The notes under the pieces are model-generated. The model made no database searches, was not told the DNA's origin, and saw only the letters and a program-made list of their open reading frames with translations. DNA of 41,298 bases from Prevotella sp. (GTDB taxonomy: Bacteria > Bacteroidota > Bacteroidia > Bacteroidales > Bacteroidaceae), in contig JAFZCU010000083.1 of assembly GCA_017556145.1 (NCBI GenBank), positions 1-41,298 on the forward strand. Reading direction: 5' to 3'. Of this stretch, positions 8,614 to 10,789 are shown in pieces. The number at the start of each line of letters is the position of its first letter. The stretch's first letter is position 1. Position numbers and translations under genes: made by a program.

Positions 8614-9801
8614 TCATTCTGCAGTGAGATAATTGATAACGGGATTGGCATACATCGTGAGGATGCGCTCACGGAGGAAAGCCTCATCCTTATTTTCGAG
8701 GGTGATTTTGGCAAGTTGACCAGAAAGGTACTGTCCGAAATTCTGCTTATCGTCATCGGTATAATGAGTGCTGTTCGCCTGATCGCCATTAAGTTCGTCG
8801 AGGGCAATGTAATTGCAAGGGAAGAGTTCGTAGCCCTTATGTATTTCTCTGTCCATGCGCTCAGCGACTGCCTTGAAGTATTCGGTCTTGGGAAGGTCGG
8901 AGAGCTCATCTATCCAGGTATTGATGGGGGCTGCCGTGCGATAGACCACACGGCCCTTGTAACCGAAAATGCCTGTCTTCATATTGTCAAGATCGTCCTG
9001 ACGCGACTTCTTGAAGGTGGGATTGTCGCGCTTCTGCTGAAACTCCTGAGCCTTAAGATAGTCGCAAGGGTCGTACTCATAGCTGATAGTCAGGGGCACG
9101 ATGTTCAGTTCCTTGAGGTCGCCGCCCATCGCCAGCATCTTTAGCACCGCATCCTGGGTACGATCGTTGGAATCTTTCGCCCTCCCCTCGCGCTGGGCAA
9201 TCCAGATATTCTCCTTCTTCTGGGTGACGGCGAAATGGATATAGCGGCTCATGAGCTGTGAAGCGGCGAGGGTCTCACGAAGCGAGAGGCCACGACGAAC
9301 CGTAAAAGCCTTGTTCATACGTACAAGACGCCTGATCCAAGGATAGATGAGGAGGTTGTCACCGATACCAATCTCGACGGTAGTAGGATAGCCGGCCTCA
9401 ACAAGTTTCACATCGAGGAAGGCCGAGTCGAGCACGATATCGCGGTGATTACTGACGAACGTGTATCGGGGGGACGGTTCTTTTGATATATCGCGCGATG
9501 TATCAAAAGAACCGTCCCCCCGATACACGAGGTGAGAATCGTCGAAGGTGCAGCCGTTGGTATGCTTGCGGATGATATGGTTGACAATGGGCTTCATGAA
9601 ACGCTTCTGGAAATCGAGCGGTGTCTTGACACCCTTGAAGGCCAGACGCAGCAGTCCATTGCGGACAGACTTCGGCAGCCAAGGAGCAAAGCCTTTCATC
9701 ACGACATTAAACTGGCGGTCTTTCAGAAGCTCTTCGAACGCCTGTTTCATTTCCTCAGCCTCATAAGGCCTTATCTCTGCAAACTCCTTGGGAATGTTCA
9801 T
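8614..9801 (-). CDS. Glycerol-phosphate acyltransferase-like protein carrying an in-frame palindromic insertion
   Basis: A 395-residue protein of the PlsC-like acyltransferase group (1-acylglycerol-3-phosphate acyltransferase fold), probably at the inner membrane face. Motif I is SNHRDIVLDS (NHx4D-type, near residue 118), FTVRRG matches motif II, and IAQREGRAKDS matches the EGR-containing motif III. It begins 4 bases after the ddl stop and ends the PASTA-RluD-Ddl operon. Residues 91-114 are encoded by a 70-base palindrome and read YRGDGSFDTSRD then ISKEPSPRY, a charged segment placed just before motif I. The frame is intact, so the enzyme may tolerate this as a surface loop. The acyl acceptor is not identifiable from sequence. 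Confidence 0.85.
   Translation of the reverse strand: MNIPKEFAEIRPYEAEEMKQAFEELLKDRQFNVVMKGFAPWLPKSVRNGLLRLAFKGVKTPLDFQKRFMKPIVNHIIRKHTNGCTFDDSHLVYRGDGSFDTSRDISKEPSPRYTFVSNHRDIVLDSAFLDVKLVEAGYPTTVEIGIGDNLLIYPWIRRLVRMNKAFTVRRGLSLRETLAASQLMSRYIHFAVTQKKENIWIAQREGRAKDSNDRTQDAVLKMLAMGGDLKELNIVPLTISYEYDPCDYLKAQEFQQKRDNPTFKKSRQDDLDNMKTGIFGYKGRVVYRTAAPINTWIDELSDLPKTEYFKAVAERMDREIHKGYELFPCNYIALDELNGDQANSTHYTDDDKQNFGQYLSGQLAKITLENKDEAFLRERILTMYANPVINYLTAE
9460..9529. repeat. 70-base near-perfect palindrome (REP-like element) inside the acyltransferase gene
   Basis: Positions 9460-9488 are the exact reverse complement of 9501-9529 (29 bp). The central 9490-9499 (ATCGCGCGAT) is itself a palindrome, so 34 of 35 positions pair and the last one (9489/9500) is a T-G pair. 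The arm includes GGGGGGACGGTTCTTTTGAT. Similar GGGGACGGTTCTTTTG-type palindromes are, from memory, scattered in several bacterial phyla and resemble REP elements mobilised by TnpA-REP (RAYT) transposases. No transposase and no second copy were found here. Confidence 0.85.
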
Positions 9802-9805
9802 CTGC

Positions 9806-10789
9806 TTATATAAACTGGTTTTCTACTATTTCCGTCAAAACATCGGTCATAGAGAGGCCTGCGGCACGTACCTGCTGCGGGATGAAGCTGGTAACAGTCA
9901 TGCCTGGCGTCGTATTGACCTCAAGCATGGAGATTTTACCCTCCTTCGAGATGATATAGTCGATACGGATGATGCCGTTGCAGTGGAGAATATCGTAGAT
10001 ATGAGAGGTAATCTGAGCCACGCGCTCGGCAACATCGGCGGGAATCCGCGCAGGCGTAATCTCCTGCACCTGGCCGTTGTACTTGGCATCGTAGTCAAAG
10101 AACTCATTGCTGGTCACCACCTCCGTCGCCGGCAGTACCACCGTCTTCTCCCTGGTTTTATAGACACCTTGCGAGATCTCCGTTCCCTCAAGGAAGCCTT
10201 CGACCATAATCTCAGAACTCTCCAACATGGCTTTGCGGATGGCAGGAGCCAACTGGTCCTTGTTCTTCACCTTTGAAACACCGAAACTGGAGCCATCAGC
10301 AGCGGGCTTTACGAAACAAGGCATACCGATGCGCTCTTCTATCTCATCGTCACTCACCAGTTCCTCATAGCCCTTACGGATTAGCAGCGAATCGGCCACA
10401 CTTACCCCATAGCCACGCAGATACTGATTCAGCACGAACTTGTCAAAAGTCATCGCTTCGATGAGCACGCCACTGGTGCTATACGGCAGACCTATCAGGT
10501 CGAAATATCCCTGTAATATACCGTTCTCGCCAGGTGTGCCATGTATGGTGATATAGGCATAGTCGAACAGCTTTGCCTCGCCATTTTCCATAAACGAGAA
10601 ATCATTGCGGTCTATCTGGACTGTTGTGCCATCGGGCAGTTCCACGTGCCAGTCCTGGCCTTTGATGTCAACGATATACACATTGTAGCGCTCCTTATCA
10701 AAGAAGGAGAAAAGTCCCTGTGCCGAACGCAGAGAAACGTCATGTTCTGAGGAGTCGCCACCACATACGATGGCTATTGTTCTTTTCAT
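9806..10789 (-). CDS. ddl: D-alanine--D-alanine ligase
   Basis: Joins two D-alanines with ATP to make the dipeptide for peptidoglycan precursors, in the cytoplasm. About 327 residues with the ATP-grasp order: N-terminal IAIVCGGDSSEHDVS with EHxVS, central KPAADGSSFGVSKV, and C-terminal IRIDYI and MLEVNTTPGMT, where the Asp, Glu and Asn bind Mg-ATP. The ATG at 10789 (MKRTIAI) is chosen because family members begin this way; an ATG one codon upstream and a TTG at 10798 are alternatives. It sits between RluD (32 bases) and the acyltransferase (4 bases) in an operon led by a PASTA protein. The short spacer to RluD is unusually AT-rich. Confidence 0.95.
   Translation of the reverse strand: MKRTIAIVCGGDSSEHDVSLRSAQGLFSFFDKERYNVYIVDIKGQDWHVELPDGTTVQIDRNDFSFMENGEAKLFDYAYITIHGTPGENGILQGYFDLIGLPYSTSGVLIEAMTFDKFVLNQYLRGYGVSVADSLLIRKGYEELVSDDEIEERIGMPCFVKPAADGSSFGVSKVKNKDQLAPAIRKAMLESSEIMVEGFLEGTEISQGVYKTREKTVVLPATEVVTSNEFFDYDAKYNGQVQEITPARIPADVAERVAQITSHIYDILHCNGIIRIDYIISKEGKISMLEVNTTPGMTVTSFIPQQVRAAGLSMTDVLTEIVENQFI

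Follow-up and report, generated by a model that had tools for sequence, protein, structure and literature searches.

REPs are defined as extragenic. In REPINs and BIMEs, two inverted REP-like units form a hairpin and a RAYT gene with a matching unit lies nearby, as described in the available text of Bertels and Rainey (2011, PMC3116915), where 14 of the 1,067 occurrences of three top 16-mers of P. fluorescens SBW25 are reported to overlap genes. In TIRtrons, or TIRYTs, inverted repeats, some of them sharing the sequence GGGGWSAS, stand on either side of RAYT-like genes, and dimers of these repeats have been described as well (Di Nocera 2013, PMC3733652). In the available text of the same work, in-frame TIR insertions are not described but intragenic REPs are, from several species, with different REPs near the same recB site in two Xanthomonas. 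The subclass 2.6 TnpA-REP transposases of Bacteroidetes carry the motifs NH[LIV]H and YIH[QN]NP and have atypical flanking structures that are copied elsewhere in the genome, intragenic copies going unmentioned in the accessible sections of PMC6006769. Rickettsia palindromic elements, as cited in PMC3733652, are in-frame palindromes within unrelated genes that likely still work; they belong to another phylum than the element presented here, are CGTC-tagged in R. conorii, and no transposase gene flanked by CGTC repeats is reported for them in that text. Finally, in the IS200/IS605 family, the transposase recognises single-stranded hairpins, and a guide carried by the element selects the cleavage sites through base pairing, according to the available text of PMC8266576.

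The window, that is, the whole stretch of 41,298 nucleotides analysed here (Prevotella sp., assembly GCA_017556145.1, contig JAFZCU010000083.1), contains at 9460..9529 a true palindrome with no spacer, in which 34 of 35 positions pair. Its arms, 9460-9494 and 9495-9529, measure 35 nt each and are 97% complementary, with 29 exact outer positions followed by one mismatch and five more pairs, which confirms the near-perfect 70-base palindrome with exact 29-base arms of the original prediction. As had also been claimed, it lies wholly within a coding region whose frame is kept, a minus-strand open reading frame of 395 aa (8614..9801) with no internal stop. The palindrome folds at -38.8 kcal/mol as DNA (9450-9539; z -12.9) and at -63.1 kcal/mol as coding-strand RNA (9440-9549; z -11.2); since none of 200 shuffles folded as well in either form, and since 34 of the 35 positions pair, a chance palindrome is ruled out. 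The rest of the window held no second palindrome at the thresholds of the window-wide search. A core of 15 nt, GGGACGGTTCTTTTG, recognised through a core search and through aligned copies, occurs as a first unit on the plus strand (9471..9485) and as an inverted second unit on the minus strand (9504..9518). The whole of 9460..9529, including an outer arm that appears to be host sequence, is most likely a non-autonomous RAYT-type hairpin element of REPIN/TIR-like character, a reading that rests on the existence of family copies, on the presence of the core in congeners, and on a RAYT stop codon that falls within the arm of one copy.

The gene that carries the palindrome encodes an acyltransferase-like protein that scores 20.1 bits against the Pfam Acyltransferase model, under the curated cut-off of 23, and that has no NCBIfam match and no solved structure at E 0.1. 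It is matched in 59 of the 60 genomes of the genus, its own among them, and the best 80 named loci of a further collection belong mostly to Prevotella, Xylanibacter and other Prevotellaceae, a large share of them sampled from the rumen; the host is thus very likely a Prevotella of rumen type. The motif that follows the palindrome (N118-D125; 9427..9450, minus strand) had been read as NHx4D; it is NHRDIVLD, hence Hx5D by count, and all eight residues are invariant among 44 aligned proteins. The segment preceding SNHRDIVLD is a variable loop, which was measured from GC(T)FDD to RYTFV in an alignment of 110 proteins (the window's and 109 homologs): it has a mode of 20 and a median of 21 residues in the homologs, reaches at least 30 in 15 of the 109, and has 34 in the window. 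Five of the 109 loci are identical DNA present in two collections, and among the 104 distinct homologs mode and median are unchanged, with 14 loops of at least 30 residues.

The insertion had been expected to add about 23 residues before the motif. Homologs indeed lack the additional residues, but compared with the modal homolog the loop shows a net gain of only 14. R112-Y113-T114, at the coding 3' end of the palindrome, are part of the conserved protein, with R112 and T114 unchanged throughout the 44 aligned sequences and the R found in 107 and the T in 101 of the 109 homologs. Codons V92-P111 (9469..9528, minus strand) thus supply 20 residues where the modal homolog has about six. The conserved triplets CGA TAC ACG of R-Y-T (9460..9468, minus strand) are the palindrome's last nine coding bases and, since they are conserved, one outer arm is, as judged from this alignment, old host sequence, of which the opposite arm, CGTGTATCG, is apparently an inverted copy. 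None of the 109 homologs encodes the same residues in non-palindromic DNA, a finding that would have spoken against an insertion. In G031 (locus L028), the closest congener sampled, the same place is taken by a shorter palindrome, GCGCGACTCACGGGGACAGGTCCCCGTGAGTCGCG, which represents a different GGGAC type. The acyltransferase is probably still functional with its insert, and the loop that bears it would lie at the protein surface. A second place in the protein (approximately residues 212-255 of the L099 and L131 proteins) holds other inverted repeats in two species (L099 2681-2764; L131 2637-2754).

A search for further copies of the arm in the host genome and in other Prevotella had been suggested, and copies were found in both. 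A search of the window's own genome, G000, with the pattern GGGACRG(8-38)CYGTCCC yielded 14 matches, window included, versus two for the reversed pattern that served as control, and an approximate search with the core added four copies, one of them a half copy; beyond the window, G000 thus holds 16 further copies, including the half copy and leaving aside a 23-nt match (L026). Among the 60 genus genomes, G031 has 16 pattern matches and G018 has eight, and both genomes carry the window's core. Most aligned copies, read by eye, have a nested layout, X-GGGACRGnnn-X'-loop-X-nnnCYGTCCC-X': the inner X' is similar to the complement of its outer X, and the inner arms are less regular than the outer ones. 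The family is one of nested palindromic elements with GGGAC(A/G)G as their building block. The inverted pair of hairpin-forming units that is typical of REPs is therefore present in most aligned copies. The GTAG tag that stands beside the REP/REPIN hairpin is absent, its place being taken by a GGGGAC motif, and the REP core of SBW25, as given in the available text of PMC3116915, is likewise not found, the core here being GGGGAC. The sequence GGGGACAG, seen at several RAYT flanks, fits the TIRtron consensus GGGGWSAS, from which the window's family, reading GGGGACGG, is one letter off.

The outer arms were compared in 16 aligned copies that carry the GGGACGGTTCTTTTG core. Within one copy they agree at 84-100% (classes -10 to -1), a figure that falls to 19% at -12/-11, and between different copies they agree at only 54-76%. 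Since agreement within copies exceeds that between copies and drops past 10 bases, the comparison shows an element edge that is sharp at about 10 bases and arms that change together. In nine of 13 distinct left/right arm pairs, ACAG stands one base before GGGAC; the window reads TCGG at that place and does not fit. Two observations make it less likely that both outer arms are a constant component of the element: the conserved R-Y-T in the right arm of the window's palindrome, and the left arm of a copy in a GSCFA gene (see below). The exact pattern had no match in a set of viral contigs, and phage-borne copies were accordingly rejected; plasmids gave four weak matches, with E about 3. A further genome, G032, contains palindromes within palindromes, one GGGAC element lying at the centre of another (L217 1960-2055, L221 126-249, L229 2014-2116), which suggests that these elements may insert into each other's loops.

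A search for a RAYT gene had likewise been suggested, and G000 does carry a single Y1_Tnp match over the cut-off (51.1 bits), a second one, at 18.8 bits, remaining under it. The G000 protein and that of locus L180 in G031 display NHVH and YIHQNP, in agreement with the subclass 2.6 motifs; both miss the 80-bit cut-off of the NCBIfam model REP_Tyr_transpos (NF047646), with 61 bits (E 1e-16) and 73.3 bits (E 2e-20), respectively, and no solved structure was matched by the RAYT at E 0.01. The G000 gene is flanked by inverted GGGGACAGGAGTGC units, approximately 0.3 kb upstream and just downstream, which are related to the unit of the window but different from it. A RAYT accompanied by the window's own unit was seen only in G031, at L180, where the TAA stop codon of the gene lies inside the outer arm of a nearly complete palindrome of the window's family. 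This overlap is the strongest link between palindrome and transposase, and together with the family copies it bears out the suspected resemblance to REP-like elements, for which a RAYT carrying the identical unit is characteristic.

The association between RAYT genes and the repeat extends to the genus. RAYT matches at E 1e-8 occur in 14 of the 60 genomes, G000 included, eight being classed as near full length and six as fragments. Pattern matches number 1-16 (median 8) in the eight genomes with a near-full RAYT and average 1.13 in the 46 with no match (Mann-Whitney p = 2e-4), the latter figure falling below the mean of 2.1 obtained with the reversed pattern. GGGACRG or its complement is present within approximately 250 nt of the gene at 13 of the 16 RAYT loci examined, out of 28 matches, and on both sides in four, versus 67 of 800 windows of 500 nt drawn at random from other loci. 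The correspondence has exceptions in both directions: G032 has 56 pattern matches but only broken RAYT pieces; G003, G019 and G026 have five pattern matches each and no RAYT match; and G033 and G055 possess a RAYT and one pattern match each.

The location of the copies was established for 18 in G000, 16 in G031, four of the eight in G018 (the ones that share the core of the window) and, in G032, 28 of the 56 matches, a sample that covers most of those listed (C3, C32:34809 and C37 excepted). Copies fully inside an ORF of at least 150 aa amount to 16 of 18 in G000, or 15 when L011 (C125), whose palindrome directly follows the TAA stop of a likelier gene in another frame, is counted as outside; to 13 of 16 in G031; and to four of four in G018. 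With L011 outside, and with L026 (the 23-nt match, probably due to chance) and L018 (which has no ORF of 100 aa) kept in the total, 32 of 38 copies are intragenic in these three genomes versus none of 28 in G032 (Fisher p = 4e-13). Random 48-mers fall inside such ORFs in 84-86% of cases in G000, G031 and G018 and in 69% in G032; the intragenic position is thus the base rate in the first three genomes, as if genes were no barrier, and the copies of G032 avoid genes. REPINs are extragenic, a trait shared by the G032 copies but not by those of G000, G031 and G018.

A recognisable family could be assigned to 28 of the 32 intragenic ORFs, in two cases (the window and L012) only under the Pfam cut-off; L194, L024 and L196 lie in ORFs without a Pfam match and L213 in an ORF to which no family is assigned, and at L205 and L201 the element lies near an ORF start whose true position is uncertain. 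Among the genes hit, those with family support in G000 encode DnaG primase, MutS2, a CobT-type phosphoribosyltransferase, a phospholipase D-type protein, a sulfatase, an outer membrane efflux protein, an amidohydrolase, GSCFA, GH2, 5-formyl-THF cyclo-ligase and TatD; those in G031 encode a helicase, MntP, DUF3109, a radical SAM protein, GH92, GH43, a THUMP-like protein, biotin ligase (birA), GSCFA and GH2; and those in G018 encode RsmF, hit twice, and a pseudouridine synthase. All 29 copies assessed are read in a stop-free frame, and 28 of them have at least one closed frame, a result that is partly circular, the copies having been chosen as lying in ORFs. The suggested ability of such palindromes to occupy genes without closing their frame is therefore supported for many genes, and in-frame insertion into unrelated genes is a feature shared with the Rickettsia palindromic elements.

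Several of these sites have received different repeats in different genomes. At one and the same position of GSCFA, G000 has a GGGACAGGAAC element and G031 a GGGACGGTTCTTTTG element, and the loop is short in G018 and others, so that filled and short sites stand side by side among genomes; the short sites of L294-L296 read GCACAG, the G000 element starts after CACACAG, and the left arm of that element is similar to the short site of L296. In GH2, elements of two families share one site (L010, L198). The loop of BirA is filled with GGGAC-type units in four genomes (G031, G020, G007, G055); what G000 has there is a perfect inverted repeat of 14 bp that is unrelated to them. More generally, the loops of the acyltransferase, TatD, RsmF, GSCFA and BirA hold differing in-frame repeats in other species, either other GGGAC elements or, except in BirA, 7-bp tandem repeats. 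Another type of inverted repeat, resembling CCCCTCCC...GGGAGGGG, occurs in frame in acyltransferase, TatD and RsmF loops (L103, L124, L263, L280).

With a test for period 7 (at least 12 of 14 self-matches at lag 7), the loops that pass number 9 of 16 in TatD, 4 of 15 in RsmF, 2 of 17 in GSCFA, 0 of 17 in BirA and 13 of 109 in the acyltransferase, or 12 on its 104 distinct loci; lags 5, 6, 8 and 9 gave one loop in total, and shuffles about none. In 880 kb of DNA, in which some contigs are present twice and arrays with an identical start were counted once, 31 period-7 arrays lie within ORFs and 19 outside, and all other periods from 4 to 12 total 24. Long heptamer-like acyltransferase loops are also found in two isolate genomes (L064 and the complete genome L097), so they are not only an effect of metagenome assembly. 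The in-frame heptanucleotides of protein loops (such as CTCTCAA, AATTCTC and CATCACC) vary in unit by species, seven not being a multiple of the codon; examples include the TatD loop of L255, the RsmF loop of L281 and the acyltransferase loops of L061 and L099. A heptamer array reading DRWKMEDGSWQKED is also present in a 623-codon frame of G000 (C101:76464-76509; L314), where the peptide SNLSPLTSHLSPLSAH, which follows the first array, looks like a second one. One survey, cited in the available text of PMC4679880, found that in most genomes no class of long simple repeats was as abundant as heptanucleotides.

Taken as a mechanism, the palindrome is very probably a non-autonomous mobile hairpin element, one of a family that would depend for its movement on a Y1 HUH transposase of RAYT/TIRYT type acting in trans. 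Such an element would consist of two inverted REP-like units, each arranged as outer arm X - GGGACGGTTCT - inner arm X', with no transposase gene of its own. A single-stranded hairpin would be excised and inserted during replication beside a short target, which would become one outer arm; by analogy with the IS200/IS605 biochemistry, the inner X' could act as a guide and one outer X as the target. One outer arm may hence represent the target, of which the other side would bear an inverted copy, the arms being matched at a later stage by hairpin-templated copying or repair. Inserts would survive only if they left the frame open and encoded a loop that the protein tolerates. An inverted copy of the target is a signature that is not described for REPs in the available texts of the literature compared.

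It is highly unlikely that, instead of transposing, the palindrome arose on the spot out of a short inverted repeat, through the hairpin-templated repair known as quasipalindrome correction. Growth in place would accommodate the agreement of arms within copies, the outer arm of host origin, and the shorter GGGAC palindromes or single units found in the same loops elsewhere (L028, L235, L247, L238); it would not, however, yield the same core at unrelated sites, and the 15-nt core is found again in unrelated genes, across three genomes, as well as beside a RAYT gene. Even less credence can be given to a host function for which the sequence would have been kept, be it an RNA that pauses translation or controls the mRNA, or a DNA site that binds a nucleoid or repair protein: the RNA hairpin is predicted to be very stable, at -63 kcal/mol, but aligned orthologs do without the palindrome, copies sit in unrelated genes at unrelated positions, and the region 9000-10000 has no Rfam match at gathering score, the best sub-threshold hits being microRNA hairpin models. 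An assembly or binning artefact, such as a chimeric hairpin read in an assembly that is indeed fragmented (completeness 82.7% over 242 contigs, contamination estimated at 5%), is the least probable explanation of all, because the core recurs with distinct flanks and loops in the assemblies of G031 and G018, the frame is kept, and R112-T114 continue smoothly into the conserved protein.

A mobile RAYT-type hairpin thus remains the preferred reading, and parts of it are known already from intragenic REPs, Rickettsia palindromic elements, REPINs and the subclass 2.6 transposases of Bacteroidetes. What look new are the mostly intragenic life of the family and the recurrent refilling of the same loops; the literature searched, which took in few subscription journals, yielded nothing on RAYT palindromes of Prevotella or on in-frame insertion of inverted repeats into loops in that genus. 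A tentative extension, plausible but short of probable, is that loops of housekeeping proteins in a rumen-type Prevotella clade act as repeat sinks, which RAYT palindromes and 7-bp arrays would repeatedly enter in frame, replacing each other at the same codons in different species, with RAYT elements that would have become mainly intragenic and would supply protein loops over evolutionary time. An intragenic, in-frame family of RAYT type, present in dnaG, mutS2, birA, rsmF and other genes, would point to selfish hairpins as a possible steady source of new protein loops outside Rickettsia. Related genomes of gut bacteria provide filled and short sites for comparison, so that the old question of whether selfish DNA makes protein segments is now directly testable, and the sites described here hint that such DNA keeps rewriting protein loops.
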